From contig JAAZLJ010000006.1 in NCBI GenBank assembly GCA_012799365.1, positions 1 to 35,251 on the forward strand: a stretch of 35,251 nt of DNA, written 5' to 3'. The position numbers and the translations under genes are program-made. The DNA comes from Syntrophomonadaceae bacterium (GTDB lineage: Bacteria; Bacillota; Syntrophomonadia; Syntrophomonadales; Syntrophothermaceae). Position 1 is the first letter of the stretch. The number at the start of each line of letters is the position of its first letter. A model generated the notes under the pieces. That model was given only the letters and a program-made list of their open reading frames with translations, had not been told where the DNA came from and searched no databases. Shown in pieces: positions 688 through 25,595 of this stretch.

Positions 688-1521
688 TTACCACTCTGGC
701 GGCAGCTGGCGTAACTGGGCCAGGTTAAATACCGGTCCATCCAGACAGATGTATTCTGAACCGATATTGCACCGGCCGCATTTACCGATACCGCATTTCA
801 TCCGCATTTCCAGGGTGGTTATTACCTGTTCATCGTTAAAACCCATTTTCTCCAACGATTGTAAAACCATTTTAATCATTATCGGCGGTCCGCAGACCAC
901 GGCGATGGTATTATCCGGACTCGGATTAATCTCTTCTAAATAGGTGGGTACAAAGGCCACTTTCCCGTCCCAACCCTCTTCCGCCCGGTCAATGGTAGTA
1001 TAGACTTCGGTATCCTTCTGCTCCGGCCACTCTTCAAACAGCTCCCGCTTGAAACAAAGGTCAGCTTGGCTGCGAGCTCCATACAATATCTGAATATTGC
1101 TATATTTATCCCGATGCTGAAAACAGTATTTGATAAAAGAGCGCAAGGGCGCCAGGCCAATACCGCCGGCGATGAACAACATATTCTTGCCTTCACACGC
1201 TGCCACCGGGAAGCCATTTCCATAGGGTCCCCTTACCCCGATTTCCTGCCCTATATTAATATCATGCAGGGCATCGGTAAGCACTCCCACTCTCCTGATA
1301 GCAAACTCCAGGTGATCTTCTGCCTGCCAGGAAACGGAAAACATCCCTTCTCCCGCCGGAAGCAGTGAGACCATGGCCAGCTGCCCGGGCATAACCGGGA
1401 AGGGAATACCGTTGTCAGTGGTAACATAGAAGGTCTTGACATCCGGGGTCTCGTCAACGATATCTACTACCTTAACAATGCTGGGAACCAGCGGATTTTC
1501 ACAGTTACAATTACCGGACAT
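688..1521 (-). CDS. flxA: FlxA: FAD/NAD(P)-binding oxidoreductase subunit of Flx-Hdr
   Basis: 277 residues. The fold is that of ferredoxin:NADP+ reductase-like subunits such as AsrB (anaerobic sulfite reductase) and the gamma subunit of sulfhydrogenases. An FAD-binding half contains 'RGPYGNGFP', an NAD-binding half contains 'GGIGLAPLRSF', and a C-terminal [2Fe-2S] loop has Cys243, 248, 251 and 259. In Flx-Hdr complexes this subunit is known to take electrons from NADH in the cytosol. The gene is the last of the minus-strand operon, overlaps flxB by 11 bases and is followed by a terminator. It could be called a generic hydrogenase/sulfur reductase gamma subunit. The neighbouring flxB, flxC, flxD and hdrABC make Flx the better name. 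Confidence 0.85.
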   Translation of the reverse strand: MSGNCNCENPLVPSIVKVVDIVDETPDVKTFYVTTDNGIPFPVMPGQLAMVSLLPAGEGMFSVSWQAEDHLEFAIRRVGVLTDALHDINIGQEIGVRGPYGNGFPVAACEGKNMLFIAGGIGLAPLRSFIKYCFQHRDKYSNIQILYGARSQADLCFKRELFEEWPEQKDTEVYTTIDRAEEGWDGKVAFVPTYLEEINPSPDNTIAVVCGPPIMIKMVLQSLEKMGFNDEQVITTLEMRMKCGIGKCGRCNIGSEYICLDGPVFNLAQLRQLPPEW

Positions 1522-2524
1522 CGAGTTCCACCTCCTGCAGACGCTTAATGATCGAAACTATATTTATTCCCTGTGGGCACGCCACTATACAGCGACCACA
1601 GCCGGTACATAATGACGTACCATAACGTTCCTGAAAAAATTCCAGCTTATGCAGAAAGCGGTTGCGAAAACGCTCGTGTTTGCTGCCCCGAGGATTGTGT
1701 CCTCCGGCCATCATGGTGTATTCCGGATACATACAGGAATCCCAGCAGCGAAAACGGTAGCCTTCCGTTCCCCGGTTCTTTACCTGTATATCGAAACAGT
1801 AGCAGCTGGGGCACAGATAGGTACAAATACCGCAGTTCATGCACGGCTCAGCCAGTTCTTCCCACAGCGGGTGTTCAAACATTCCGGCCAGCTTTTCCGG
1901 TAACCCATTAATGTCAACCTGGAGCTGGAACTCACCCGCTGACGGCTTCTGGAAATCCCGGTCTGCCAGGATATCGCCCAGACTCTGTGTAAGCTTCTGG
2001 CCCCGCTCACTGCGCGGTTCCCACCCGTAAGCATCACCCAGGTCATATATGATTACGTCAACCGGATCCGGTTCCAGCGGATCCACCCCCATGGCACTGC
2101 AGAAACAGTTGGGTCCGGGCTGGGTACAGGCCTTGCCTATAATAATCAGCGGCTCTCGCCGCGCTTTATAAAATCCGTCCTCATATCCGCGGGTCAGGAA
2201 TACCTCATCCAGGGCGGCTATCGCCTTGCTGTCACAGGCACGCACCCCGAATACCACCCGCTCCTTCCGTTCTTCTCCGGTTTCCTTGATCTCCACGCTC
2301 TGTCCCCGGGCCGCGAAGGTGTACATTTTCTCGGTCTGGGGCAGCACCACCTCTTTGGGCGAAAACATGGTGTTCAGACTATCCAGAGCCAGTTCATCCC
2401 CCGGCACGGTGGGCCAGGGAGCAAATCTGCTGCCTCCCTCCCGATGCACAGGCACATACACCTGGCTGTTTTCCGCAAGCCGGTTGAGCGCAGTGTTTAT
2501 CTTGTCTTTAACCAGGACTTTCAT
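1511..2524 (-). CDS. flxB: FlxB: 4Fe-4S dicluster subunit (AsrA-like)
   Basis: An iron-sulfur electron-transfer subunit of the AsrA / sulfhydrogenase-beta family. Numbered from a GTG at 2533, a first [4Fe-4S] motif has Cys231, 234, 237 and 241 within 'CMNCGICTYLC'. A second has Cys309, 312, 315 and 319 within 'CTGCGRCIVACP'. An N-terminal 'GVRACDSKA' is typical of the family. I prefer the ATG at 2524, three codons downstream of the GTG, because GGAGAGG then lies 8 bases upstream. From the GTG the spacing would be almost zero. The protein would carry electrons between FlxA and the FlxC/FlxD-HdrA side. It starts 14 bases after flxC ends and overlaps flxA. Confidence 0.85.
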   Translation of the reverse strand: MKVLVKDKINTALNRLAENSQVYVPVHREGGSRFAPWPTVPGDELALDSLNTMFSPKEVVLPQTEKMYTFAARGQSVEIKETGEERKERVVFGVRACDSKAIAALDEVFLTRGYEDGFYKARREPLIIIGKACTQPGPNCFCSAMGVDPLEPDPVDVIIYDLGDAYGWEPRSERGQKLTQSLGDILADRDFQKPSAGEFQLQVDINGLPEKLAGMFEHPLWEELAEPCMNCGICTYLCPSCYCFDIQVKNRGTEGYRFRCWDSCMYPEYTMMAGGHNPRGSKHERFRNRFLHKLEFFQERYGTSLCTGCGRCIVACPQGINIVSIIKRLQEVELDVR

Positions 2525-2538
2525 CAGGCTCACCTCTC

Positions 2539-3444
2539 CTATAGGAAGTTATCCGGGTCGTCAGGCCGATACACACTCAGGGGTGGACTGGCCTCCTCTT
2601 CCAGCTTCAGGCTGGCTTCATACGGCCCAAATAACTCGTTTACGTCTTTAATTAACTTGCGGTTCAACAGCATCAAAGGTATGCCCACCGGGCAAACGCG
2701 TTCACATTCGCCACATTCTACACACCGACCCGCTACGTGCATAGCTCTTATGACATGGTAACCAATATTATCCATCAGGTTGGTTTCTCTTCCCACCCAC
2801 TGGGGCCGAGTCTCGTCGAATATACACCGGCGGCAGTTACAGGCTACACAGACATTGCGGCAGGCATAACACCGGATACAGCGCGAAAACATATCAGAAA
2901 AAAACTGCCAGCGTTCTTCCGCACTCATGCCCTCCAGTTTCTTGACCTGGGCAAATCTCTCACCCTCCAGGTGAGGCGGCTGCTCATCACCTATAAGCTC
3001 ATCATAGAGTACGGGATTGGGATACATACACTCCCGGCACTTGGCGGCCAGGCCTTCGTTCTCTTCCGTTCCGTTTAGACCAGAAGCCGCTCTGGCCGCG
3101 GCCAATGGGTCCTTCATACCGGGACAACCAATACCAATGATGTACAGTCTTTCACGTAGAAACTGGTTGTCTTCGATAAGACGCACCACTCCACGCGAGT
3201 CACAGCCCTTGACGAATATGCCGATTTTCTCCTGCCCATCCCGGTAATCTAATAAAAAGGTACTCAAATTATGAATACAGAATTCATCAAAAACCAACTG
3301 CTCGGCCTCTTCGGGCTCCCGGATAAAGACCGGTTGACTGCGAAAGGGCTCGGGCCCCTTCTCCCATCCCAGCACCAGGTCAACCTGCTGCCCATCCAAC
3401 AGTTTACGGGCAGTTTGTCTCACCCGGTCTGTCAATTCCTTCAT
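2539..3444 (-). CDS. flxC: FlxC: 4Fe-4S ferredoxin-domain subunit
   Basis: 301 residues. The N-terminal half has 'FVKGCDSRGVVRLI', as in F420-hydrogenase-beta / formate dehydrogenase accessory-like proteins. Several Cys clusters follow: 'CRECMYPNP', a Cys-dense stretch 'CIRCYACRNVCVACNCRRC', and a ferredoxin-like 'CVECGECERVCPVG'. In known flxABCD-hdrABC loci the third Flx gene is such an iron-sulfur protein. Its start ATG shares one base with the flxD stop (TGATG), so translation is probably coupled. The exact number of clusters cannot be fixed from sequence alone. The Flx role rests on gene order. Confidence 0.8.
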   Translation of the reverse strand: MKELTDRVRQTARKLLDGQQVDLVLGWEKGPEPFRSQPVFIREPEEAEQLVFDEFCIHNLSTFLLDYRDGQEKIGIFVKGCDSRGVVRLIEDNQFLRERLYIIGIGCPGMKDPLAAARAASGLNGTEENEGLAAKCRECMYPNPVLYDELIGDEQPPHLEGERFAQVKKLEGMSAEERWQFFSDMFSRCIRCYACRNVCVACNCRRCIFDETRPQWVGRETNLMDNIGYHVIRAMHVAGRCVECGECERVCPVGIPLMLLNRKLIKDVNELFGPYEASLKLEEEASPPLSVYRPDDPDNFL

Positions 3445-3872
3445 CAGGCATCCCTCATCTTTCTGCTGGGCCCGACCTGGCGCACATCGTTTACCACTTT
3501 AGTAACCACATCGGCAAATTTCTGGCCTTCAGAGCCGGAGATCCAGGCCGTCTGATACCGTTCAGGTTCCAGGCCCAGATATCCCAAAAAACTCTTCATC
3601 AAGGTATGACGCCGACGCGTAAAATAATTGCCACTACCATAGTGACAGTCACCGGGGTGTCACCCCGATACCAGTACACCATCTGCCCCCTGCTGGAAGG
3701 CTCGCAGAATGAACTGCGGATCCATACGCCCGGAGCAGGGAACGCGAATTATCCTTATATCAGCCGGGTACTGCATCCGGTTAAGTCCGGCCAGGTCAGC
3801 ACCGGCATATGAACACCAGTTACAGGCGAAGGTCACCACTTTAGGTTTCCAGGCACCATCATTTACAGACAT
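3444..3872 (-). CDS. flxD: FlxD (MvhD family), selenocysteine-containing by in-frame UGA
   Basis: Reading through one in-frame TGA (3660-3662) gives 142 residues, the normal MvhD length. Without readthrough only 70 residues would remain. MvhD-type subunits carry a [2Fe-2S] cluster and pass electrons into HdrA. Visible residues are Cys17, Cys20 (CNWC), Cys46 and the family signature '[16 protein letters not shown]', where Sec71 replaces the usual Cys and Cys76 follows. After the UGA the same frame continues with clear MvhD sequence to a TGA at 3444-3446. A SECIS-like hairpin follows the UGA. VhuD of Methanococcus has selenocysteine at the same motif, which supports this reading over a nonsense mutation. 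It overlaps hdrA by 10 bases. Confidence 0.88.
3629..3647 (-). promoter_or_regulatory. bSECIS-like hairpin in flxD
   Basis: Immediately downstream of the flxD UGA the mRNA can form an 8-bp stem, UGUCACUA with UAGUGGCA (one U-G pair), closing the 3-base loop UGG. The loop lies 20 bases after the UGA. Bacterial SECIS elements generally have an apical loop 16-37 bases after the UGA with a G among its first two bases; this one has G in the second position. Confidence 0.7.
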
Positions 3873-5845
3873 AATGCATCCACCTCCGCTAGGATTTGCT
3901 CATCGGTGAAGCCCTTCAAGTTCAAGGCCCCTGAGCGGCAAGCACTGATACATGCTCCACACCCCTGACACAAGCCTTCATTGACAGCTGCTGCCTGGCG
4001 GGTAATGGGACCTTTGGGCCCCCGCTCCTCCACCTGCTTCATGCTAATCGCTTGATAAGGGCAAATAGGTACACAGAACTCACATCCCGAACACTTGCTG
4101 ACATCTACCTCCGATACCATAGGCTGGGTAGACAATTCCGGTTTGGAAAACAGCATGGCGACCTTGACCGCCGCCCCACTGGCTTGAGCCACCGTATCGG
4201 GTATGTCTTTGGGCCCCTGGCAGGCTCCCGCCAGATAGACCCCACCGGTAAAGGTCTCTACCGGCTGCAGTTTGGGATGGGCTTCCTGGAAGAAGCCGTC
4301 CTTGTCAGTGGAAAATCCCACCAGCTTTGCGATCTCCTCTGCACCTCGGGCTGGCTCCATGGCCGTTGCCAGCACTACCAGGTCAGCCTCCACCTCAATA
4401 GGCATGCCCAGAAGGGTATCTTCACTCTTCAATACCAGGCGGTCCCCACGCGGATATATCTTGCTCACTCGCCCGCGAATGTATTTGGCTCCGGCGTTCA
4501 GGGAGCGCTGATAGAATTCCTCATAGTTCTTGCCCGCAGTACGGACATCCATATAGAACACATAGGCTTCCCCACCGGGTATCTTTTCCAACACCTGCAA
4601 AGAATGTTTGGCTGTATACATACAGCAGGCCCGAGAACAGTAGGTCTTGCCTTTGGTATCATCCCGGGAACCCACACATTTGATAAAGGCTACACTCTGC
4701 GGTGTCTTCCCGTCCGAGGGTCGCTTGATCTTACCTCCGGTAGGCCCGGAAGCATTAACCAGTCTTTCAAATTGCAGCCCGGTTATGACATCCGGGAATT
4801 TGCCGTAGCCGTATTCCCCGTAAGTTTGCGTCCAGTCAAAAAGGTCAAATCCGGTGGCCATAACGATGGCCCCTACGTTTTCAGTAATCAGTTCATCTTT
4901 ATCATCGAAATTTATGGCCTGGGTAGGGCAGATTTTTTCACATACCCCACACTTGCCATTCTTTAACTTGCGACAATTCTCAGCATCGATGACCGGCTTG
5001 TTGGGTACCGCCTGTGGAAAAGCTTTATAAATAGCGGTCCTGTTGCCCAACCCCAGGTCAAACTCGCTCTTCAGTTTCTTGGTGGGGCACTTGGTCTCAC
5101 AAGTACCACAGCCATTGCACTTATCCCAGTCGACATACTTGGCCTTTTGGCGAATGGTAACGGTAAAATTGCCGATATATCCGTTAACTGCTTCTACTTC
5201 GGAATAAGTATACATTTTAATATTAGGATGCTGTGCCACAGCAACCATCTTGGGGGTACTTATTCAGGCCGAGCAGTCCAGGGTGGGAAAGGTCTTATCC
5301 AACTGAACCATCTTACCCCCAATAGTGGCCTCCCTTTCCACCAGTATGACTTCATAGCCCGTGTCGGCAATATCCAGAGCTGACTGCATACCTGCTATAC
5401 CGCCTCCAATTACCAACGCCCGTTTAGTAACAGGAATGGTACCAGGCTGAAGCGGTTCGTTTTTCAGCACCTTGAAAACCGCCATCCTCACCAGGTCTGA
5501 TGCCTTGCGGGTAGCTTCTTCCTTATCGTTATGAACCCATGAGTTTTGTTCACGAATGTTCACCATTTCGAACAGGTATGGATTTAAGCCACCATCCCCC
5601 ACCGCCTTACGGAAAGTGTTTTCGTGCATACGGGGGGAACATGAAGCTACCACCACCCGTTCCAGGTTTTGTTCCTGGATGGCTTTCTTGATCAGATCCT
5701 GCCCCGGGTCGGAACACATGTATTTATAGTTAGTAGCATAAACTACCCCCGGCATTTCCAGGGCTTCTCGGGCTACCCGCTCGGTGTCCACCACCGAAGC
5801 AATGTTGGTACCACAGTCACATACGAAAACTCCTACTCTTTTCAC
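3863..5845 (-). CDS. hdrA: HdrA, selenocysteine-containing heterodisulfide reductase subunit A
   Basis: Reading through an in-frame TGA (5264-5266) gives 660 residues, normal for HdrA. Conventional translation would split it into 193- and 461-residue parts. HdrA is the FAD subunit and site of flavin-based bifurcation. Visible features are an N-terminal 'CDCG' (Cys9, Cys11), the dinucleotide motif 'VIGGGIAG' (residues 145-152), and 'DCSA-U-ISTPKM' with Sec194 at the Cys of the canonical DCSAC motif. 4Fe-4S motifs follow at about residues 243-253 ([11 protein letters not shown]), 291 onward, 585-600 ([11 protein letters not shown]) and 625-640 ([11 protein letters not shown]). The two halves are in the same frame with no stop between other than the UGA. 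It overlaps hdrB by 4 bases and flxD by 10. Selenocysteine HdrA is known from methanococci. Confidence 0.9.
5226..5246 (-). promoter_or_regulatory. bSECIS-like hairpin in hdrA
   Basis: GGUUGCUGU pairs with ACAGCAUCC (one U-U mismatch) around the loop GGC. The loop starts 26 bases after the UGA and its first base is G, which fits the general bacterial SECIS rules. Confidence 0.7.
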
Positions 5846-7212
5846 TGACCGGTCACCTCCTCTCCTTTGGTCTTAGCCTCTTTTTTAATAAATGCTTCGC
5901 CCACTTTTATGGCCTTATCCTTATCCTGGGCCATAATTTGGGCCAGCTTTTTCAACTTATTTGTATCACGGGTGAGAATCTCTGCCAGCTGTCGAGCTTT
6001 AGCCTCATCGTTTTCAAATAAACGGGAAGAGAATTTCAAAGCCCCCTTACTGGGACCACCCGCAGCATCTTCAGTTCCGACTGACTTTGGTTTGGCTGCC
6101 TCCCCAGCCTTTTTGGCTTCCTTCTTAATCATAGCTTCAGCCACTTTACGAGCTTTATCTTTATCTTCAGCCATAATTTTGGCTATTTTCTTAATTCGTT
6201 CTGGTTCCCGAGTCAGAATTTCCGCTAGTTGATTGGCCTGGTCGGAATCATCTGCAAAGATACGGGTCGATAACTTGACCGCACCCTTGGATAGCCCGCC
6301 AGCCTGCGGCTCAGAAGCCGCTTTCTCCTTCGCCACTTCTTCCTCTGCTTGTGAAAGATGGGTCAGATGGTAGACTGCTTCAACAAAGTGCCGATGGATC
6401 CCCATTTCTTGCAGGGAGATCCCACAGGCCACACCTACCATCTCGGTGATATAATAAATCGGCAGGTCAAACCTGACCCCGAATCTCTTCTCTATCTGAG
6501 CCTGACGCATATCCAGGTTCATCTGGCAGAGAGGACATACGGTCACTATGCTATCCGCTCCCGCTTCCCGCGCCCTTTTTAATATTTCGTATGACATCCG
6601 CAGACCTACCTCGGGCCGGGTAGTGGAAAGGCTGGCTCCACAGCATTCGGTCTGGTGGGACCAGTTTACCGGCTGGGCTCCCAAAACCTTCATTATATTA
6701 TCCAGAGACTGCGGATATTCTGGATCATCAAACCCAGTATACTCTACCGGTCTTACCAGCAGACACCCGTAATAACAGGCAGGTTTCATTCCCGACAATG
6801 GTTGAGTTACCTTTTTCTTAATGGCATCCAGGCCAACATGACCGACCAGCCATTCCAGTATGGATAAGGTCTGGTTCTGGGCGTGGTACTCCATAGCGAT
6901 GGCTTCCTCTACCTGCTGCCGCACACCGACATCCTCGCGCACCAGGAATTCAGTGGCACGAAACCGGTTGTAGCAAGCGGCACAAGGAGCCAGGACATCC
7001 AGCCCTTCCTGTTCGGCCAGGGCCAAGTTGCGAGCCGGCAACGCCAGAGAAAGCAGCCAATTGGTGCTGTGAGCCGAAGTGGCCCCACAGCAGTTCCAGT
7101 CGGCAATCTCTTCCAGCTCCACCCCCAGCATCTCGGCCACCCGACGGGTAGATACCCCGTATTCTACAGCCGTAGCATTTAATGAACATCCTGGATAATA
7201 GGCCAGCCTCAA
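5842..7212 (-). CDS. hdrB: HdrB with a duplicated C-terminal extension
   Basis: 456 residues, about 150 longer than usual HdrB. Residues 1-285 are a standard HdrB with two CCG-type modules: Cys9, CysCys41-42, Cys77/Cys80, then Cys146/Cys150, CysCys190-191 and Cys226/Cys229. In this family these bind the two non-cubane [4Fe-4S] clusters that reduce a disulfide. Residues ~286-304 are a Glu/Ala linker. Residues 305-370 and 385-450 are two copies of a Lys/Ala-rich helical unit spaced exactly 80 residues apart, about 42 of 66 positions identical, each beginning 'GG-x-SKGA' and ending 'IKKEAK'. The function of the tail is unknown. The gene overlaps hdrC and hdrA by 4 bases each. The partner disulfide cannot be named; no DsrC gene is in the window. 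Confidence 0.9.
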   Translation of the reverse strand: MRLAYYPGCSLNATAVEYGVSTRRVAEMLGVELEEIADWNCCGATSAHSTNWLLSLALPARNLALAEQEGLDVLAPCAACYNRFRATEFLVREDVGVRQQVEEAIAMEYHAQNQTLSILEWLVGHVGLDAIKKKVTQPLSGMKPACYYGCLLVRPVEYTGFDDPEYPQSLDNIMKVLGAQPVNWSHQTECCGASLSTTRPEVGLRMSYEILKRAREAGADSIVTVCPLCQMNLDMRQAQIEKRFGVRFDLPIYYITEMVGVACGISLQEMGIHRHFVEAVYHLTHLSQAEEEVAKEKAASEPQAGGLSKGAVKLSTRIFADDSDQANQLAEILTREPERIKKIAKIMAEDKDKARKVAEAMIKKEAKKAGEAAKPKSVGTEDAAGGPSKGALKFSSRLFENDEAKARQLAEILTRDTNKLKKLAQIMAQDKDKAIKVGEAFIKKEAKTKGEEVTGQ

Positions 7213-7778
7213 CTCGGTCCACCTCCCATCTGCTCGACCCGTTTAAAGATCTGCTTCACCTGCTCCCGACCCTTGATGGTTCCGGGTAAAAGATGAACTT
7301 TGCCACGTGTGAACATGGGTAATCCCAGTTCCACATCTTTAAACAATTGACCGGTTTTCAAATTAAACTCCATCATCAGTCCTACTTCATGTACGCGGCC
7401 AAAGCGTTCCACCAGTTTGAGAAACGCCTTATTGAAAGTAGCTACTTTATGGTCGGTTACCTCGCCCCTCTTTAGAGCCTCCCGGCGCAGGGCATCCATA
7501 AGGGAAGCTATATCCACTCCTCGCGGGCAGCGTGTAGTGCAGGTGTCACAGGTAGCACAAATCCATATGCTCTCCGCCTTCACCGCTTCATCCACCATCT
7601 CCAACTGCAAGAGCCTTATAACCTGCCGTGGGGTATAATCCATAGCAAAGGCCGCTGGACACCCGGCAGCACATTTCCCGCACTGGTAGCATAAGCTCAC
7701 CTCGGTGCCACTCTCCCGCTCAATCTCCTTAATGAATTGCTTTTTCGCCTTCCCGGGAGATACCAGGACCCTCTCCAT
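7209..7778 (-). CDS. hdrC: HdrC, 4Fe-4S electron-transfer subunit
   Basis: First gene of the operon. Two ferredoxin-type motifs, 'CYQCGKCAAGCPAAF' and 'CATCDTCTTRCPRGVD', are those of HdrC, which carries electrons from HdrA to HdrB. The open frame begins at an ATG at 7796, giving 195 residues. The ATG at 7778 (189 residues, starting MERVLVSP) is the likely start because AAAGGGGAG lies 6 bases upstream of it. That purine tract would be inside the coding region if 7796 were used. The gene ends with a 4-base overlap into hdrB. Confidence 0.87.
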   Translation of the reverse strand: MERVLVSPGKAKKQFIKEIERESGTEVSLCYQCGKCAAGCPAAFAMDYTPRQVIRLLQLEMVDEAVKAESIWICATCDTCTTRCPRGVDIASLMDALRREALKRGEVTDHKVATFNKAFLKLVERFGRVHEVGLMMEFNLKTGQLFKDVELGLPMFTRGKVHLLPGTIKGREQVKQIFKRVEQMGGGPS

Positions 7779-7834
7779 TCCTTTCTCCCCTTTCATATGT
7801 AAATATATTTCTTAAATGGCAACATTGCTGGTGC

Positions 7835-10136: not shown

Positions 10137-10179
10137 ATTCTCAACCCCCTCTACATCATTTCCACTAAAACTGCCCTGT

Positions 10180-10400
10180 ACTTGAACTCACATGCAAGCA
10201 GGAATTCTGGCTTGCATATTCCCCCGACACTCATCCATAAGCCATCCCATCTATCTGCGTCTATTTCCATCGCAGACCCCTCCTGTCGGTCGCACCGACA
10301 CCAACGTTTATTGGAGTGTGTTAACCCGGCGAAGCGACCTGACGAGGAGGCGTAGCAGTACACAGCGGTTTCAATTTCATCGCCCCATCGCTCACAAAAT
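10180..10400. repeat. Intergenic repeat copy R1, inside the hydrogenase operon
   Basis: The 271-base gap between hyfB and hycI carries no credible gene. It shares words in the same wording with two other intergenic regions: TCTGCGTCTATTT (10254-10266, exact at 25555-25567), TGTCGGTCGCA (10284-10294, exact at 31591-31601), TTGGAGTGTGTTAACCCG (compare 31503-31521), GCAGTACA, and CGGTTTCAATTTCAT (compare 31566-31581). The copies are degenerate. Confidence 0.6.
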
Positions 10401-10407
10401 GTCGGAG

Positions 10408-10917
10408 TTACCAGCTGCCGGTTACTCCACCCGGCATCCCAGAAAACCCGGGCTGCCGTCCACCCAGAGTCTTAACTAACCAGGATTCCAGGCAGTTTAA
10501 GATTAGTTCTACGCCGGGACTGAGCGGCTCCCCCAGATGGGTGGTCTGTGGCTGTATCCCCAGCATAAATACGTCAGCCCCGGTCAGCTGCTGCAAATAA
10601 CGCATAAACAAATCCAATCCCATTTTATGGGTACTAAGGTTCAGATTACCCAGGTCACTGGTTTCAATGATGGCCAGTGAGCCTGGTTTAGCTCCTACGT
10701 CTACCGCGTCCAATATGAGCACGGTATCTGGTTGGAGATCTGTTATTCGTGAAAGGTAGCTTTCTGGCACCTCTCCAACATCGAGCAAATCGGCTTCAAT
10801 CTTGCCATACAATCTTTCCACCAGGGCAGGCCCAACCGCATCATCACCGCGTAAAGGGTTGCCCACCCCCACCATTACAACATTACCTTTCAATCTCTCC
10901 TTCAGCTGTTTCCACAT
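10408..10917 (-). CDS. hycI: Hydrogenase maturation endopeptidase (HycI type)
   Basis: 169 residues. 'VVMVGVGNPLRGDDAVGP' near the N-terminus is the signature of [NiFe]-hydrogenase maturation proteases, with an Asp for nickel sensing. A second Asp is in 'VLILDAVDVG' and a His in 'LSTHKMGL'. Such proteases cut the C-terminal peptide from the large subunit after nickel insertion. The large subunit in this operon still carries a 32-residue tail after its last motif, so this is its likely substrate. The start overlaps the end of the small-subunit gene by 35 bases, which suggests translational coupling. A later start is possible. Confidence 0.9.
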   Translation of the reverse strand: MWKQLKERLKGNVVMVGVGNPLRGDDAVGPALVERLYGKIEADLLDVGEVPESYLSRITDLQPDTVLILDAVDVGAKPGSLAIIETSDLGNLNLSTHKMGLDLFMRYLQQLTGADVFMLGIQPQTTHLGEPLSPGVELILNCLESWLVKTLGGRQPGFSGMPGGVTGSW

Positions 10918-11395
10918 TTACCTGCCCACCTTCCTGATAAAAGTAGGGCTCTACCTTCTTATCTACGATACCAATAGCCACCGCAATGCCATAAATAATA
11001 GCCTCGGGACGAGGTGGACAGCCAGGAATAAAGAAGTCAACCGGTAAGACCTGATCCACTCCACCTACTACGTTATACGTATCAAACCACATGCCCCCGC
11101 CGATAGCGCAGGAGCCGCAGGCTATAACCAGTTTCGGATCCGGAACTGCTTCGTACAACCGCCGCAAACGCGGCTCCACATGGCGGGTTACCGGACCAGA
11201 TACCAGCAGGATATCGGCATGTCGTGGTGATGCCACCAGTTTCAGGCCGAACCGCTCGGCATCATAGTAAGGGGTAAAAGCATTTATCTCCTCGATATCA
11301 CACCCGTTGCAAGCCCCGGTGTTAGCATGGAATACCCAGAGGGATTTCTTAAACGCCTTCTCTAACAAGGATTGAAGAAACTTCACATCCGCCAT
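10883..11395 (-). CDS. hyfI: [NiFe] hydrogenase small subunit, NuoB-like (HyfI/HycG type)
   Basis: 170 residues. Cys29 and Cys32 in 'GACNGCDIE', Cys96 in 'IACGSCAIGG' and Cys126 in 'IPGCPPRP' are the four ligands of the proximal [4Fe-4S] cluster found in group 4 hydrogenase small subunits and NuoB. It is short, as usual for group 4, and has no signal peptide. It sits on the cytosolic side of the membrane arm and passes electrons between the ferredoxin-like subunit and the nickel site. It follows the 507-residue antiporter gene after 6 bases and overlaps hycI. Confidence 0.92.
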   Translation of the reverse strand: MADVKFLQSLLEKAFKKSLWVFHANTGACNGCDIEEINAFTPYYDAERFGLKLVASPRHADILLVSGPVTRHVEPRLRRLYEAVPDPKLVIACGSCAIGGGMWFDTYNVVGGVDQVLPVDFFIPGCPPRPEAIIYGIAVAIGIVDKKVEPYFYQEGGQVNVETAEGEIER

Positions 11396-11401
11396 CTATA
11401 A

Positions 11402-12925
11402 TCAACCTCCCCATGCACACATGATAGATTGGGCTGCCAGCTCAACCAGCTTGCTGATAGCCGGGGGATACAACCCAAGTCCCACACTGATACCGGCCAG
11501 AAGCACCATTGTGCCCGCCATAGAAAGCGGTAATCTGAATCCAGGGTTAGCTGGTGCCGATGCACATTCCCCTGTGTCCGGTTCTCCATGTTCATCGTCC
11601 CGCTCCAAAAACACCAGATATCCTGCCCGTACCAAACAGGCCAGGGTTAAGAGACTGGTAAACACCGCAATACCGGTGGCCCACCATAAACCAGCCTGGG
11701 CCGCGGCAATGAATATGGTAAACTTACTCCAAAACCCGTTGAGAGGCGGCAGCCCGCCAATGGCCAGGGCCCCGATAAAGAAACAAATAGCAGTTAATAC
11801 GTTTTTGTTCTCCTTACCCCGCAGGCTCGAAATATAGGTGGTACCACTGGTATACAGTAAAGCCCCGGTGCAAAGGAAAAGCATCCCTTTTAACAGTGCG
11901 TGGTTAAACAGATGGTACAGGGCCCCGAAGAATCCCAGATAAGTTCCGATGCCCAGGCCCATCACCACATAGCCGATCTGACTCACACTGCTGAAAGCCA
12001 ACATCCTTTTCAAGTCATCCTGAGCAAAAGCAAACATGATCCCCGCCAGCATGGTAACCGCCCCTATCATCACCAGTAATAGCGCGACACCACTGTATTG
12101 CGGGTAGAAAATGGTCATTACCCGGGCCATAGCGTAAGCCGCTACCTTGATGCTGACTCCGGAGAGCAGCGCGCTGACCGGGCTGGGTGATTGTGAGTGA
12201 GCATCAGGCAGCCAGGCATGGAAAGGTACCAGGCCAGCTTTGGTGCCAAATCCCACTACCAAAAATCCCATCGCCAGCAAAGTCAGTTCCCGAGGGAATT
12301 TGGAAGCCACCGTAGCGGCTGCTGTAATCAGCATGGCATCGTGACCCCCGATATGAGGCGTAGCCGCTGCATAAATGAGCACACAGCCCAATAAAGCGAA
12401 GGTAATACCTATAGTACAGAGCAGCAGGTACTTGTACCCCGCCTCCAATGACTCCCTTTTCCAGTAAAACGTTACCAATAAGGCAGAAGCCAGGGTAGTA
12501 GCCTCTACCACTACAAACAGCATGATCAGGTTATTGGTTATTACCGCCCAAACCATGGTACTGATAAACAGAGCAATAAGGCTGAAATACAAAGGCAGGC
12601 GCTCCCGGGTGGTTTTCCCTACCTTCACCTCGTGACGCATATAACGGTAACTGAATATGGTGGCTCCCAGCCCTACCGTAGATACCACCACCGCCATCAG
12701 CGCACCCAGGCCGTCCACGTACAGCTGACCATTCCAGGCCACCAGTTTGGCTCCATGCCATACCTGCCACCCCATAATCAAGGCCAAAACAAAGGTCAAT
12801 GTCGCTCCTATTCCGGCGTATAATCCCGACTGTTCCGGTCTTTTCCTTCCCGATATGGCTTCCGCTGCCGAGGCCAGAGCTGGTATCAGAAATATTAGCC
12901 AGGGTAGGATTGAATTATTCGTCAT
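11402..12925 (-). CDS. hyfF: Antiporter-like membrane subunit (HyfF/NuoN type)
   Basis: 507 residues, hydrophobic throughout. The superfamily charge network is intact: Glu in 'VVEATTLASALLV', and Lys in 'FGTKAGLVPFHAWLPDAH' and 'SALLSGVSIKVAAYAMAR'. This is the second of three antiporter-like proteins in the operon. In Hyf-type hydrogenases such subunits translocate ions driven by electron flow from ferredoxin or formate to protons. AGGGGG precedes the ATG. It lies between the small subunit and the HyfE-like gene. HyfF versus HyfD cannot be separated firmly by eye. Confidence 0.85.
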   Translation of the reverse strand: MTNNSILPWLIFLIPALASAAEAISGRKRPEQSGLYAGIGATLTFVLALIMGWQVWHGAKLVAWNGQLYVDGLGALMAVVVSTVGLGATIFSYRYMRHEVKVGKTTRERLPLYFSLIALFISTMVWAVITNNLIMLFVVVEATTLASALLVTFYWKRESLEAGYKYLLLCTIGITFALLGCVLIYAAATPHIGGHDAMLITAAATVASKFPRELTLLAMGFLVVGFGTKAGLVPFHAWLPDAHSQSPSPVSALLSGVSIKVAAYAMARVMTIFYPQYSGVALLLVMIGAVTMLAGIMFAFAQDDLKRMLAFSSVSQIGYVVMGLGIGTYLGFFGALYHLFNHALLKGMLFLCTGALLYTSGTTYISSLRGKENKNVLTAICFFIGALAIGGLPPLNGFWSKFTIFIAAAQAGLWWATGIAVFTSLLTLACLVRAGYLVFLERDDEHGEPDTGECASAPANPGFRLPLSMAGTMVLLAGISVGLGLYPPAISKLVELAAQSIMCAWGG

Positions 12926-12938
12926 TTATCCACACCCC

Positions 12939-13610
12939 CTAACCTTGCAGCTTTGATAGTTCACGGATATCAGTAGAACCGATCTGTTCATGGATACCCG
13001 TTACAATAATCAAAAGAATCCAGACAGAAACTACGACATCGGTGACTATTCCGATCATGGCCGTCTCCGGGATACCCGGGGCCAGGCTGACCAGGCTCAG
13101 ATGAACCGCATTCTCAATCAGACATACACTGATTACCGATTTCAAGGCATCTCTCCGGGAAAGTAACCCATAGAGACCAAAAGCCAGTATGGTAAAGGCC
13201 ACCGAAAGATTGGTGGCATAAGGTTCTCCCGCCAGAGCCGCTGAGGGCGCCAGCCAGCCCATATGCCCGTCGATTAACCAGTAGAACCCGGCCAGAACAG
13301 CTGCTCCAATAGCCAGTGAAACTCCGAACCCCAGACTCGGCGGTGTCTCCTCCAGCGTGGTCTTTTGCAAATAGTGCCGCAGCATAAGCGGAATAATAGT
13401 GGCCTTGGTTATCAAGACCGTAATCGCCCAGAGATAAAGCGTATGATTGGGCAAGAGGGTTCCATAGGACACCAGCAGCGCCACTATCAAGAGGGCTTGA
13501 GCTACATAAGCTATACTCGCCCATTTCAGGTGCCTCAGTTCTACAGCGGTCAGGGAGGTCACTACCAGGGCAAAACTCAGTCCAATAATAAGTGATGAAT
13601 GTTCAATCAT
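12939..13610 (-). CDS. hyfE: HyfE-like membrane subunit (NuoK-related)
   Basis: A hydrophobic protein matching HyfE, the NuoK-containing subunit of Hyf hydrogenases. 'ISVCLIENAVHLSLVSLAPG' contains the Glu in a membrane helix typical of NuoK. The frame is open to an ATG at 13649 (236 residues). The ATG at 13610 (223 residues, MIEHSSLIIG) has GGGGG 8 bases upstream and gives an 8-base overlap with the preceding gene instead of 47, so I prefer it. It would link the antiporter-like subunits to the HyfC-like membrane anchor. Confidence 0.82.
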   Translation of the reverse strand: MIEHSSLIIGLSFALVVTSLTAVELRHLKWASIAYVAQALLIVALLVSYGTLLPNHTLYLWAITVLITKATIIPLMLRHYLQKTTLEETPPSLGFGVSLAIGAAVLAGFYWLIDGHMGWLAPSAALAGEPYATNLSVAFTILAFGLYGLLSRRDALKSVISVCLIENAVHLSLVSLAPGIPETAMIGIVTDVVVSVWILLIIVTGIHEQIGSTDIRELSKLQG

Positions 13611-14145
13611 CCTCCACATCCCCCAATCTTCCCAGAATCCGCGCCTCATACTTCTGGCGGCAATCAGGACACCAGGATACCCATGCAGGTACTGTATCTC
13701 CCGACCCCTGGTCTCCGATGGTTTTTTGTGCCATCTTTTTTACCAGACGCTGAGTAGCAAAGGGGCGATTACAGCGAGAACACCTGGCTAATTTCATTTT
13801 CACCTGCAACAGCAAGTCGTCCTTCTGATTGGTGGCCGTTTCGAAATTATTGCTCATCTTTATGGCCCCTTCCGGACAAACCTCTTCACAACGAGCACAG
13901 TACGTACAGCGAGTATAATCAACCGTAAGCACCCGGTACTCACCCTCATCAGCCAGCGTGATCAGTCGGGGTGGGCAAACCATAGCACAGGTTCCACAAC
14001 CAACACAAAGCTCACCATCGATTTCAGGCTTGCCCCGGAAACCCTCCGGAGGTGCCTGGGGTACAAATGGATACGGCAGAGTCACCCGTCCCGCTCGGAG
14101 GCAAAGCAATGCTTCCTTTAATTTACTGCTAAACAATCGGCCCAC
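13603..14145 (-). CDS. hyfH: NuoI-like two-cluster ferredoxin subunit (HyfH type)
   Basis: 180 residues. Two 4Fe-4S motifs, 'CVGCGTCAMVCPPRL' and 'CTYCARCEEVCPEGAI', are followed by a C-terminal CxxC pair set ('CSRCNRPF' ... 'CPDCRQ') that looks like the zinc-ribbon tail seen in HyfH/MbhN-type subunits. It is the electron entry wire between ferredoxin and the small subunit. It starts 4 bases after the hyfC-like gene ends and overlaps the hyfE-like gene. Confidence 0.9.
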   Translation of the reverse strand: MGRLFSSKLKEALLCLRAGRVTLPYPFVPQAPPEGFRGKPEIDGELCVGCGTCAMVCPPRLITLADEGEYRVLTVDYTRCTYCARCEEVCPEGAIKMSNNFETATNQKDDLLLQVKMKLARCSRCNRPFATQRLVKKMAQKTIGDQGSGDTVPAWVSWCPDCRQKYEARILGRLGDVEDD

Positions 14146-14149
14146 CTCC

Positions 14150-15055
14150 TTATATACCCAGGAGTGCGAAAGCGAGACCCGCCAGGGCCAGCACCGCTAC
14201 TCCCTTGAAGTAGTTAATCGCCTGGTCAATCCGTAATCTCGGGTTGACCAACTCAATCAATTCAACCACAACCACTACCAGGAATACTTTGGCCAGATTA
14301 ATAATTAAATCCAGCAGCACAATCCCGGTCTGAGGGCCTGGTAAAAATACCCCCAGAAACAACGAAATAAAAACTATAACTTTGGCATAAAGTGCCCATT
14401 TGAAAAGAGCCAGCTTGGGTCCACTATTTTCTACAAACGGACCCTCCATTATCTCCGTCTCAGCTTCCGCGATATCGAAAGGAAGCTTGGCCAGCTCAGA
14501 TTGCATAGCCAGGAAGAAAGCCAGCCCGGCAATTATTACTGATACACTCCACCCATTGGCCAGCGTCCAGCCGGTGATATCAGACAAAACTAGAGAACCG
14601 GCTTTCAACCCCACGGTAAGCAGTGAAACGGCCACAATAGGCTCCACAGTCAGCACCAGGCTCATCTCCCGGCTGGCACCCAGCATCGAATACGGACTGC
14701 CAGCGGCCATTCCCCCCAGTATGATGGCAATCCCAGGAATACTGAGCAAATAAATTAGCAGTATAACATCCCCACCAAAACCCAGGGGAGCCGCCGTACC
14801 CATGGGGGTAAAGAGAGCCGCCACCAGAACTGAGCCCAGGCAAACCACCGGGGCCATGCGAAAAATAACGTTGTTGGCTACTTCCCGATCCTCCTTGCCG
14901 AAAAGCTTCAAAAGGTCATAATAAGACTGCATCAAAGGCGGACCCTGCCGGGAATGAATAATCGCTTTGATACGCCGCATAAACCCATCCAGTAGAGGTG
15001 CCAGGGCCAGGGTAACCCCGACATTAAACAGGGTGAGTAGTATTATTCTGGTCAT
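14150..15055 (-). CDS. hyfC: NuoH-like membrane anchor (HyfC/HycD type)
   Basis: 301 residues. The N-terminal loop 'RRIKAIIHSRQGPPLMQSYYDLLKLFGKE' is the conserved motif of NuoH/HycD/EchB proteins. 'AEAETEIMEGPFVENSG' is the acidic loop expected near the ion entry path. It anchors the hydrogenase module to the antiporter arm. It overlaps the large-subunit gene by one base, so translation is likely coupled. Confidence 0.92.
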   Translation of the reverse strand: MTRIILLTLFNVGVTLALAPLLDGFMRRIKAIIHSRQGPPLMQSYYDLLKLFGKEDREVANNVIFRMAPVVCLGSVLVAALFTPMGTAAPLGFGGDVILLIYLLSIPGIAIILGGMAAGSPYSMLGASREMSLVLTVEPIVAVSLLTVGLKAGSLVLSDITGWTLANGWSVSVIIAGLAFFLAMQSELAKLPFDIAEAETEIMEGPFVENSGPKLALFKWALYAKVIVFISLFLGVFLPGPQTGIVLLDLIINLAKVFLVVVVVELIELVNPRLRIDQAINYFKGVAVLALAGLAFALLGI

Positions 15056-16740
15056 TAATTTTCACCCCCTCGATACTCCCGGCGGCTTTTTTCCACTACT
15101 TCATTCCGATTATATACCCGTACTTTACGGGTTCTTACATCGACGGTTTCCATCCGCTCGGTACAGGAGAAACAGGGGTCAATACTCGCGATAATAATAG
15201 GAGCATCAGCCACCGTATTATTGGCCAACATGGTAGGTACCGCCTGCAGCTGCGGGTAAGTTGAAGCTCGTACCCGCCAGCGATAAGGCCGGTTGCCGGG
15301 TCCTGTTATTACGTAGTGACAGCACTCACCCCGGGGGGCTTCAATCACCGATATGCCCTCACGACCGGGTTCGATTTCGCCCACCTCGGCCATTATAGAT
15401 CCCTCCGGCATTTTCTCCAGAGCTTGCCGAATCAAACCGATAGATTCAAATAATTCATGCAAACGAACCAGCGTCCTGGCCCATACATCCCCGGCACTGA
15501 AAACTGGAACCGTCAAAGCCAGATCCGGATAAGCCGCATAAGGATGGTCGATACGGCTATCGATTTCCACCCCGGAAGCCCGGGCCGTAGGACCTACTAC
15601 ACAGATGCTGCGCGCATCCTCCAAAGGCAAGCAGCCCACATCTTTCAACCGCATAATAAGCGTGGTATCGTCTATGATGGCATCCACCACTTCACGAAGC
15701 TGAGATTCGATACCCGCAATGGTTTCTAAGATTTTCGGATACAACTCGGGTGAAATATCGCGCCGCACCCCCCCGACCAGGTTCATTCCATAAGTTTTAC
15801 GGTTGCCGGTTATCGCTTCCGCCAGCCACATGACCGGCTCGCGAATACGCCAGGACTGCATCAATACGGTGTCAAACCCTATGATATGACCGGCCAGACC
15901 CAACCACAACAAGTGGCTGTGAATGCGCTCCAGCTCCAGCATAACGGTGCGGATATAGCGCGCCCGGTCAGGAATCACGATTTCCGCCGCCGCCTCTACT
16001 GCCTGGCAGTAGCAGCAGGAATGGACAAACCCACAGATACCACAAATCCTTTCCGCCAGGAAAGGCACCTGATTATAGTCGAGCACCGTATCTGCCAGCT
16101 TTTCTATACCTCGATGGCTGTAAAATCCGCGATAGTCACTATCAATAATGCGTTCACCTTCGACAAACAGCCGATAACAAGCCGGCTCTTCCAATGTTGG
16201 GAAAAACGGCCCTACCGTCACCACCGTAGTATTTTCCGGTGCCTTTCTTACCGGTGGCTCCGCTCCAGGTACCGGCTCCGGTTTGAAGTTATGGGGAAAG
16301 TCTTTGCGTAGTGGATATAACCCCTCCGGCCAGTCGTCAGCCAGAACCAGTCGGCGCGGGTCTGGATGATTTCTGGGCTCCACCCCGATGAGATCCCGCA
16401 CCTCTCGTTCTGCCCAGTTGGCACCCGCAATAATAGGAGTAACTGACTCCACCACCGGATGTTCCGGATCAATCTCTACCGTGATGCTGAGGATGATATT
16501 ATCCCAATCAAATGAGAAAATATAGGAAATTTCATACCATCCCGTATCAGGTGTGCGATCGGTTCCTACCGTGGTAATCAGCCGTGCCTTCAAGTCATTG
16601 AACACGTATCCCACTATTCTTGGTAAAACATTGGCATCGACATTTACCTGTAATTGATTACTCCCCCGCAGAACCCAATTTTTCACCTGATCCTGGCCAT
16701 ATTCCTTGAGTTTTTGGGCTAATTCTTCACGTGTTAACAT
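15055..16740 (-). CDS. hyfG: [NiFe] hydrogenase large subunit fused to NuoC-like domain (HyfG/HycE type)
   Basis: 561 residues. Residues 1-150 are the NuoC-like domain ('NWAEREVRDLIGVEPRNHPDPRRLVL'). The rest is the catalytic subunit. Both nickel-ligand pairs are intact: Cys233/Cys236 in 'RICGICGFVH' and Cys523/Cys526 in 'DPCFSCTER'. That distinguishes it from a complex I subunit, which would lack them. A 32-residue tail starting METVDV follows Arg529 and should be removed by the maturation protease. The reaction is 2H+ + 2e- to H2 in the cytosol, usually run with reduced ferredoxin. GGGGGTGATG precedes the start. No formate dehydrogenase gene is linked, so this is unlikely to be a formate hydrogenlyase. 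Confidence 0.94.
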   Translation of the reverse strand: MLTREELAQKLKEYGQDQVKNWVLRGSNQLQVNVDANVLPRIVGYVFNDLKARLITTVGTDRTPDTGWYEISYIFSFDWDNIILSITVEIDPEHPVVESVTPIIAGANWAEREVRDLIGVEPRNHPDPRRLVLADDWPEGLYPLRKDFPHNFKPEPVPGAEPPVRKAPENTTVVTVGPFFPTLEEPACYRLFVEGERIIDSDYRGFYSHRGIEKLADTVLDYNQVPFLAERICGICGFVHSCCYCQAVEAAAEIVIPDRARYIRTVMLELERIHSHLLWLGLAGHIIGFDTVLMQSWRIREPVMWLAEAITGNRKTYGMNLVGGVRRDISPELYPKILETIAGIESQLREVVDAIIDDTTLIMRLKDVGCLPLEDARSICVVGPTARASGVEIDSRIDHPYAAYPDLALTVPVFSAGDVWARTLVRLHELFESIGLIRQALEKMPEGSIMAEVGEIEPGREGISVIEAPRGECCHYVITGPGNRPYRWRVRASTYPQLQAVPTMLANNTVADAPIIIASIDPCFSCTERMETVDVRTRKVRVYNRNEVVEKSRREYRGGEN

Positions 16741-16754
16741 AGTCTCATCACCCC

Positions 16755-16952
16755 CTATAAGACCAAGAGCATGGCCACCAGGATGACGGTTATTCCCCCT
16801 ATCTGCCTCAGCAGATAAATCCGGGTTAAACCACGGTGAACCTTACTCAGATTCCGATACCACGCAGAGAAACTTCTATCCAGCAGCCAACTTAAATGTT
16901 CGAGAACTAGAATTTCAGCCGGTAGTTCTGATAGTTTTACGGATGCAATCAT
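16755..16952 (-). CDS. Small membrane-tail protein (65 aa) matching the C-terminus of HyfB
   Basis: 65 residues: a charged first half and one hydrophobic C-terminal helix. 'WYRNLSKVHRGLTRIYLLRQIGG' resembles 'WCRGFSKVHGGRPREYLLWQAVG' near the end of the 669-residue antiporter subunit. The gene upstream encodes an antiporter subunit that lacks this tail. Its ATG overlaps that gene's stop (ATGA), so the two are coupled. I read it as a separately encoded C-terminal segment of that antiporter subunit. Its size and conserved operon position argue for a real gene. No independent function is known to me. Confidence 0.7.
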   Translation of the reverse strand: MIASVKLSELPAEILVLEHLSWLLDRSFSAWYRNLSKVHRGLTRIYLLRQIGGITVILVAMLLVL

Positions 16953-18412
16953 AGACTCAGGCCCCCTATAGCGTCAGCAATAATGGGTAAACCGAAAGTA
17001 GGGGAAAGTAAACTCAGCACGATAAGCACAAATAAAGGTACCAGCATAGTCCAGGGTGGATCAACTGCAATTTCCGCCTCCGGCGATGTGGGGCCAAAGA
17101 AAACGCGCTGCATTACCTTTAAGAACCAGGCGAAACAGGCCACACTTTCTGCCACGGCCAGAACGCCTACAATCCAACCCCAGGCTGAACCCAACTGGAT
17201 GGCACCCGCAACAATAAAGAACTTGCTCCAGAAAATATTAAATGGCGGCACCCCGGAAATAGCCAGAGCCCCTACGACGAAAGCCGCCGTAGTTATCGGC
17301 ATCTTACGCCCTAAACCGCTTAGTTTCGTAATGCTTTTGGTACCGGTCGCACAGGAAATAGCTCCCACTGCCAGGAACAACAGACTCTTGGTAAAAGAAT
17401 GGTTGATGAGGTGGAGCAAACCCCCTTGTACGGCCAACGTGGAGCCCAGAGGCCCCAGAGAAAGCCCCAGAAACATATAGCCCAGGTGCGTAATAGTTGA
17501 AAAAGCCAGCAGCCGTTTGAGGTCATCCTGAAAGAAATAGAAGGTCAACCCTATATACATAGTAATCAGGGCCATGGCCCCCATCAGGTAACCCACCGGT
17601 TCTGGCACCACCTGTGAGGAAATAACTACGCGAGCAGTAAGATAGACCCCCGCCTTGACCATCGCAGCCGCATGCAGGTAGGCACTGGCTGGAGTCGGGG
17701 CCGCCATAGCTGTAGGCAGCCAGGTAGAGAAAGGAAACTGAGCCGCCTTACCCCAGGCACCGATGAGAAGAAAAACAACGGTCAGAGTTTTAAGTCCCGC
17801 AGGAAGTTCCCGCAGGGCATTAAACTCGAAGGACCCAGTTTGGACATACATAATGAGCAGAGCAGCAACGAAGAACAACCCTGCCCCGTGGGTTATAACC
17901 AGAGCCTTAAACCCGGCTTGCACCGCTTCACGGGTTCGTAGGTGAGAAATTAATCCCCATGAACAAAGGGTGGTTAGTTCCCAGAATAGAAACAACTGAA
18001 AAAAGTTGGGAGAAAGGACCAACCCGGTCATAGACCCTATGAACAGGAGCAGGAAAAAGTAGTAACGTCCTTTCTCCGCCTGGGTCGGATGCTCACGGTT
18101 GAACTCACTCACATATCCTGCTGAATACAGAACCACCAGGAATCCCACTAACGTAACCGCAATCAGCAATAAGCAGCTCAGCGGATCAATCTGCAACCCG
18201 AAAAGGGGGTGACGGCTGGTCAACCACGGTAAATCAGCCAGCGGAAAGCTAATCGGTACCAGCTTGGACTTGATAATAGCCCAGATAGCCAGAACCAGTA
18301 CTATTCCCGCAAAAATACTACTTGTAACATCGGCTTTTCGTTCCTTTAATGGAGCTATCAGCACTGCACCCACAAAAGGCAGGAGCAGCAGTATCAATAA
18401 CAGTTTGAACAC
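16949..18412 (-). CDS. Antiporter-like membrane subunit (NuoL/MrpA-like), tail-less
   Basis: 487 residues and first gene of the hydrogenase operon. Conserved residues of the superfamily are present: Glu in 'LFWELTTLCSWGLI', and Lys in 'WGKAAQFPFSTWLPTAMAAPTPASAY' and 'HAAAMVKAGVYLTAR'. The last motif is NuoL/MrpA-like rather than HycC-like. It lacks the C-terminal extension, which is encoded by the next gene. It starts at GTG, with GAGGGG 9 bases upstream. Together with the 669- and 507-residue proteins it gives the complex three potential ion-translocating modules. Confidence 0.87.
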   Translation of the reverse strand: MFKLLLILLLLPFVGAVLIAPLKERKADVTSSIFAGIVLVLAIWAIIKSKLVPISFPLADLPWLTSRHPLFGLQIDPLSCLLLIAVTLVGFLVVLYSAGYVSEFNREHPTQAEKGRYYFFLLLFIGSMTGLVLSPNFFQLFLFWELTTLCSWGLISHLRTREAVQAGFKALVITHGAGLFFVAALLIMYVQTGSFEFNALRELPAGLKTLTVVFLLIGAWGKAAQFPFSTWLPTAMAAPTPASAYLHAAAMVKAGVYLTARVVISSQVVPEPVGYLMGAMALITMYIGLTFYFFQDDLKRLLAFSTITHLGYMFLGLSLGPLGSTLAVQGGLLHLINHSFTKSLLFLAVGAISCATGTKSITKLSGLGRKMPITTAAFVVGALAISGVPPFNIFWSKFFIVAGAIQLGSAWGWIVGVLAVAESVACFAWFLKVMQRVFFGPTSPEAEIAVDPPWTMLVPLFVLIVLSLLSPTFGLPIIADAIGGLSL

Positions 18413-25399: not shown

Positions 25400-25595
25400 G
25401 AATGAAAACAGCATATTATTCGTAGAGTCTTAACCGGCTCGCTCCGATACTCCTCGACTGCAACCCATCGGCTTCGTAAGTCGCTCGACTCGGTTAAGAC
25501 TCTCCTGGTGAGGATTATTTTGTTTCTTCAGCGTTTTCATAATATTCAGTGTGCTCTGCGTCTATTTTATGATTCATCTGCGGTTTCAAACCGTT
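25400..25595. repeat. Intergenic repeat copy R2 with a 13-base inverted repeat
   Basis: AGAGTCTTAACCG (25424-25436) is exactly inverted as CGGTTAAGACTCT (25491-25503) around 54 bases that contain smaller pairs such as CCGAT/ATCGG. It shares ATGAAAACAGC, TTAACC and CGCTCC spacing with R3 (31.5 kb), TCTGCGTCTATTT with R1 (10.3 kb), and CGGTTTCAA with both. No gene is visible in 25290-25585. Confidence 0.6.

Follow-up and report, generated by a model that had tools for sequence, protein, structure and literature searches.

Selenocysteine (Sec)-containing FrhD (PF02662 family) and HdrA have been known in Clostridia since 2006, when Zhang et al. (2006; PMC1794560) listed both as selenoproteins for S. 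wolfei, Carboxydothermus, Desulfotomaculum and Moorella. FrhD stands for the delta subunit family of F420-reducing hydrogenase. The same authors counted Sec/Cys conversions for the FrhD family and reported that Sec-HdrA and Sec-FrhD share operons in archaea and Deltaproteobacteria. The flxD gene described here thus joins an already described selenoprotein family; the hosts are related, and for S. wolfei both FrhD and HdrA are on that list. For the FlpD family a CxxU motif has been given, with a maximum of two Sec residues (PMC13188914). VhuD and HdrA of Methanococcus are likewise selenoproteins (PMC2933860, PMC11097638), and VhuD hands electrons to HdrABC (PMC6019823). Here the likeness to our locus is that an MvhD-type subunit and HdrA both contain Sec and are encoded together. 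The first-pass annotation further proposed that the Sec of methanococcal VhuD sits at the motif found in FlxD. However, the archaeal SECIS elements are found mostly in untranslated regions and have another structure, and the partner of VhuD is a hydrogenase or Fdh, while that of FlxD would be FlxABC.

For Syntrophomonas, the FlxABCD-HdrABC cluster and its proposed role have been discussed, with NADH-dependent electron bifurcation involving ferredoxin and a disulfide as the proposal; Syntrophomonas BUT1 was described as being without DsrC (PMC6687939). In Desulfovibrio vulgaris the same kinds of genes form one cluster (Ramos et al., 2015, as cited in PMC6687939). Our locus resembles it in gene order and protein families, and two of its subunits are predicted to carry Sec. 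At several loci of Desulfobacterium autotrophicum, a sulfate reducer, hdrA and mvhD are neighbours and one or both of their products contain Sec; the pair is accompanied there by Mvh hydrogenase, Fdh or Dsr genes (PMC2702500). Proteomic studies of S. wolfei detected Hdr together with two neighbouring products, Swol_0400 and Swol_0402; a statement on peptides beyond the UGA was not found in this literature (PMC4324140; PMC3582634).

The hdr-flx cluster and its surroundings

The analysed stretch of 35,251 nucleotides, hereafter the window, comes from a Syntrophothermus-like bacterium and contains a co-directional run of genes in the order hdrC-hdrB-hdrA-flxD-flxC-flxB-flxA (Table 1). The genes are closely spaced, mostly with overlaps of a few bases: the start of flxD overlaps the end of hdrA by 10 bases, and one base is common to flxD and flxC. 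Judged by the predicted products, the gene set is that of the known FlxABCD-HdrABC cluster. The first-pass annotation had named flxD as a second selenoprotein gene of the operon without giving its strand, which is minus. The claim agrees with our data, as hdrA has its own UGA and its own SECIS element.

Table 1. Positions of the cluster genes, Sec codons and hairpins in the window.
Feature	Positions	Strand	Remarks
hdrC	7209..7796	minus	CoB-CoM heterodisulfide reductase subunit C family, 86 bits, below cut-off
hdrB	5842..7212	minus	two CCG stretches, C-terminal extension
hdrA	3863..5845	minus	660 aa, predicted Sec at residue 194 (DCSAU-ISTPKM); HdrA2-type
Sec194 codon of HdrA, UGA	5264..5266	minus	kept in nearly all orthologues of the order
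hdrA bSECIS hairpin	5226..5246 (approximate limits)	minus	GG.UGCUGU-GGC-ACAGCA.CC; compensatory changes in relatives
flxD/mvhD (FlpD family)	3444..3872	minus	142 aa, predicted Sec at residue 71; PF02662 across the UGA
Sec71 codon, in-frame UGA	3660..3662	minus	aligned with Cys of GCHPGDCHY / GCHxGDCHY in Cys homologues
flxD bSECIS hairpin	3623..3653	minus	8-bp upper stem UGUCACUA/UAGUGGCA (3647-3629), lower stem weaker
flxC	2539..3444	minus	Fe-S protein; name from Fe-S domain and gene order
flxB	1511..2533	minus	Fe-S protein, AsrA/sulfhydrogenase beta-like
flxA	688..1521	minus	FAD/NAD(P)H-binding, AsrB/sulfhydrogenase gamma-like

The hairpin of hdrA reads GCUGU-GGC-ACAGC in the window and GCUGC-GGC-GCAGC in other genomes, and in one case the stem is GUUG/CAAC. 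As far as these sequences tell, the pairs are changed on both sides while the pairing is kept. HdrA homologues with Cys had no such hairpin. Comparison with shuffled sequences was uninformative for this element (z = -0.84).

Other redox genes were seen elsewhere in the window. A membrane [NiFe]-hydrogenase/complex-I-like cluster occupies 10151-18412 on the minus strand and includes a 30/49-kDa fusion protein (15055-16740), with an aldehyde ferredoxin oxidoreductase (18784-20592) upstream. At 25586-28885, also on the minus strand, a fusion protein of 1099 aa combines 2Fe-2S, glutamate-synthase-beta-like NAD(P)-binding, Nqo3-type Fe-S and molybdopterin oxidoreductase domains, and is adjoined by a NuoF-like gene (28899-30662).

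The reading frame of flxD

Under translation table 11, flxD appears as an ORF of 70 aa (3660..3872, minus strand). With the TGA read as Sec, the frame gives a protein of 142 aa, i.e., 70 residues, U71 and 71 further residues, and ends at a second TGA (3446-3444). The FlpD profile PF02662 matched residues 12-134 with 180.7 bits (E 1.3e-53; gathering cut-off 22.3 bits), covering all of its positions 1-123 of 123 and spanning the UGA. The conserved Cys set of MvhD (CNWC, CSGR, GCHxGDC) is present in FlxD, at positions 17, 20, 46, 71 and 76, the fourth of these being Sec. In the solved MvhD chains 5odc, 9sw2, 8rvu and 7bkb, the position of the UGA is taken by the Cys of G-C-H-x-G-D-C-H-Y. From the letters alone, the first-pass annotation had proposed that a TGA takes the place of the Cys in G-C-HPGDCHY, that 71 in-frame residues of MvhD sequence follow it, and that the gene is easily missed with 70 residues visible as an ORF; all of this was borne out by the alignment and the profile match. 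Relative to the single-contig genome G001, which we take to be Syntrophothermus lipocalidus, the part after the UGA differs at 10, 5 and 34 sites in codon positions 1, 2 and 3, respectively. This bias to the third position indicates that selection at the protein level continues beyond the UGA.

In the window, 23 frames joined over a TGA extend for 60 aa or more before it and for 40 aa or more after it. Family homology on both sides was recognised in two of them, flxD and hdrA, and no further selenoproteins were recognised among the 23. These frames also bear on the question whether the UGA is read in another manner, by a general reassignment to Trp or Gly or by unspecific readthrough. The frame of flxD would indeed be open under any code with TGA as sense, but flxD's own terminator is a TGA, one base before the start of the next gene, and TGA is evidently a normal stop elsewhere, since both-sided homology was confined to two of the 23 joined frames. 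In addition, the homologues have Cys at this site, and the genome encodes tRNA-Sec and the full Sec machinery. We therefore regard another reading of the UGA as highly improbable. The tRNA-Sec gene (selC) scored 73.7 bits and has the anticodon TCA (UCA), the matches to SelA and SelB reached 590 and 372 bits, and selA, selB, selC and selD all lie on contig C46 within about 12 kb. Lack of this machinery had been named beforehand as an outcome that would speak against Sec in FlxD. The selD gene (G000:C46:37483-38403) has one in-frame TGA of its own.

Taken together, we put at about 0.96 the probability that FlxD/MvhD is the [2Fe-2S] electron-transfer subunit of FlxABCD-HdrABC and is made as a selenoprotein by means of the UGA and a bSECIS element. 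If TGA is taken as a stop in gene calling, FlxD would be cut to its first 70 residues and HdrA would be split. Central parts of a complex presumed to bifurcate electrons in syntrophic fatty-acid oxidisers would then go unnoticed.

The flxD hairpin and the distribution of the UGA

The hairpin after the UGA has the loop UGG at 3639-3637, corresponding to +21 to +23, with a spacing of 20 nt, and a folding energy of -10.3 kcal/mol. The rules for bSECIS elements quoted in PMC13188914 are a loop of 3-9 nt with a G within its first two positions, an upper stem of 4-16 bp, a distance of 16-37 nt from the UGA and a minimum free energy of -7.5 kcal/mol or lower. With its 3-nt loop, 8 bp, 20 nt and -10.3 kcal/mol, the flxD hairpin agrees with all of them. 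Single-sequence folding against shuffled sequences gave z = -0.15, that is, no extra stability, so the stability of the hairpin is not by itself evidence. The hairpin with loop UGG 20 bases on, as given in the earlier description, is present. The Rfam search of the flxD region gave no relevant match.

More informative was the comparison of codons between 44 non-redundant Sec genes and 86 Cys homologues. The codons +6 to +11 of the Sec genes read CAC TAT GGT AGT GGC AAT, with synonymous variation near nil. Over +6 to +12, mean codon heterozygosity was 0.084 in the Sec genes, as opposed to 0.576 in the remainder of the same genes, and 0.513 in the Cys homologues, with 0.636 elsewhere in those. 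Folding energies of this stretch averaged -12.7 kcal/mol in Sec genes and -7.0 kcal/mol in Cys genes (Mann-Whitney p 8.7e-18, to be read with caution as the sequences are related to each other). Codon +8 of the Sec genes is mostly Gly (GGT) and in others Val or Ala (GTT, GCT), with the first G and the third T fixed; by this pattern, loop and stem are maintained and the amino acid is not. The frozen codons of the Sec genes, and the decay or absence of the hairpin in two Cys orthologues, indicate that selection acts on the flxD hairpin in Sec genes but not in Cys homologues. With codons frozen in Sec genes and free in Cys genes, the gene family is a clear example of SECIS function seen by comparison.

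A match to FlxD was obtained in 50 of the 61 genomes of the order, and 48 of these 50 orthologues have exactly one in-frame TGA. In G038 and G042 there is none, and the site encodes Cys. In G017 the gene is split over contigs, and its N-terminal part holds the TGA. The same TGA is present in the single-contig genomes G001 (2,405,559 bases) and G005 (2,936,195 bases). The latter is presumably Syntrophomonas wolfei; its orthologue has the one TGA at the same motif and is 66% identical to the window protein, an ordinary divergence. The TGA is also frequent across the phylum sample. The FlpD tree contained five label changes and few firm forks; its alignment is short, and the search patterns had biased the sample. 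It was considered whether flxD could be a pseudogene, or the TGA an error of sequencing or assembly, with a real stop or a miscalled Cys codon leaving a fragment of 70 residues. The source assembly consists of 267 contigs, and the hairpin energy by itself is at chance level, as such an explanation would have it. Against this stand the recurrence of the TGA in 48 of 50 orthologues from independent genomes, the single-contig ones included, the protein-level selection downstream and the frozen hairpin codons, and we give the explanation hardly any weight.

Predicted role of Sec71 and possible Sec loss

In the reading preferred here, FlxD as a selenoprotein, SelB with Sec-tRNA-Sec would recognise the hairpin after the UGA and place Sec at residue 71, and translation would continue to the normal end at the second UGA. 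Sec71 would stand in for one of the five conserved Cys from which the [2Fe-2S] ligands are probably drawn. In methanogens the bifurcating flavin of HdrA receives electrons from the [2Fe-2S] cluster of MvhD (PMC6019823, PMC12350162), and FlxD likely binds such a cluster, as its homologues do (PMC12350162). Electrons would most likely run from NAD(P)H at FlxA over FlxB/C and FlxD to the HdrA flavin, and the Sec-containing HdrA would bifurcate or confurcate them between ferredoxin and a disulfide at HdrB. The data show the frame, the conservation of the UGA, selection on the hairpin, the Sec machinery and the gene cluster; we infer Sec insertion at residue 71, the role of Sec71, the partner disulfide and the direction of electron flow, and for the last two in this bacterium we draw on the literature on relatives. 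Within the same reading, Sec71 could instead stay outside the cluster as a free redox-active selenol, e.g., in a pair with Cys76. Five conserved Cys/Sec positions for the four ligands needed leave one spare, and the transfer from the cluster to the HdrA flavin has been described as of unknown mechanism (PMC12350162), but the family has also been described with four conserved cysteines (PMC5736913). We consider the free selenol possible, though the less likely of the two roles for Sec71.

Three genomes, from a subclade of the order, depart from the paired Sec-FlxD and Sec-HdrA arrangement. Firstly, FlxD of G038 (L155, G038:C27) has TGT, i.e., Cys, at the Sec site and a decayed hairpin; its hdrA has kept the TGA, and selA and selB are present. 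Secondly, FlxD of G042 (L154, G042:C105) has Cys and no hairpin, the Sec machinery being present, and its HdrA is a fragment that ends short of the Sec site. Thirdly, flxD of G055 (L157, G055:C194:10500-14000) has kept the in-frame TGA, followed by a hairpin that is degraded (GCCACTATGGTACCGGC), HdrA has Cys (DCSACICSPKM), and selA and selB are present. The G055 orthologue, with its TGA and degraded hairpin, is a point against the reading of FlxD as a selenoprotein. On these sequences, the three may represent stages of Sec loss; as the G055 draft genome has 6% contamination, an artefact of assembly is the alternative there. It would be a lineage where gene-by-gene loss of Sec seems under way. 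The search of the window's genome (92% complete) gave no FlxD copy with Cys. If the two redox sites in FlxD and HdrA were tuned together by selenium, the supply of ferredoxin would, with no Cys copy at hand, hang on selenium. We hold it as a tentative and rather doubtful idea that such joint tuning makes ferredoxin supply in syntrophic growth selenium-dependent and that the lineage of G038, G042 and G055 is dismantling the Sec pair stepwise.

One other FlpD candidate in the window's genome, a weak domain of 39 bits in a frame of 466 aa on contig C112, was rejected as a Cys copy of flxD. In G030 two tandem FlpD genes follow hdrA (G030:C27:3741-4649, partly L156). The first of them has no TGA, is 45% identical to the window protein and is located directly before the Sec-type copy.
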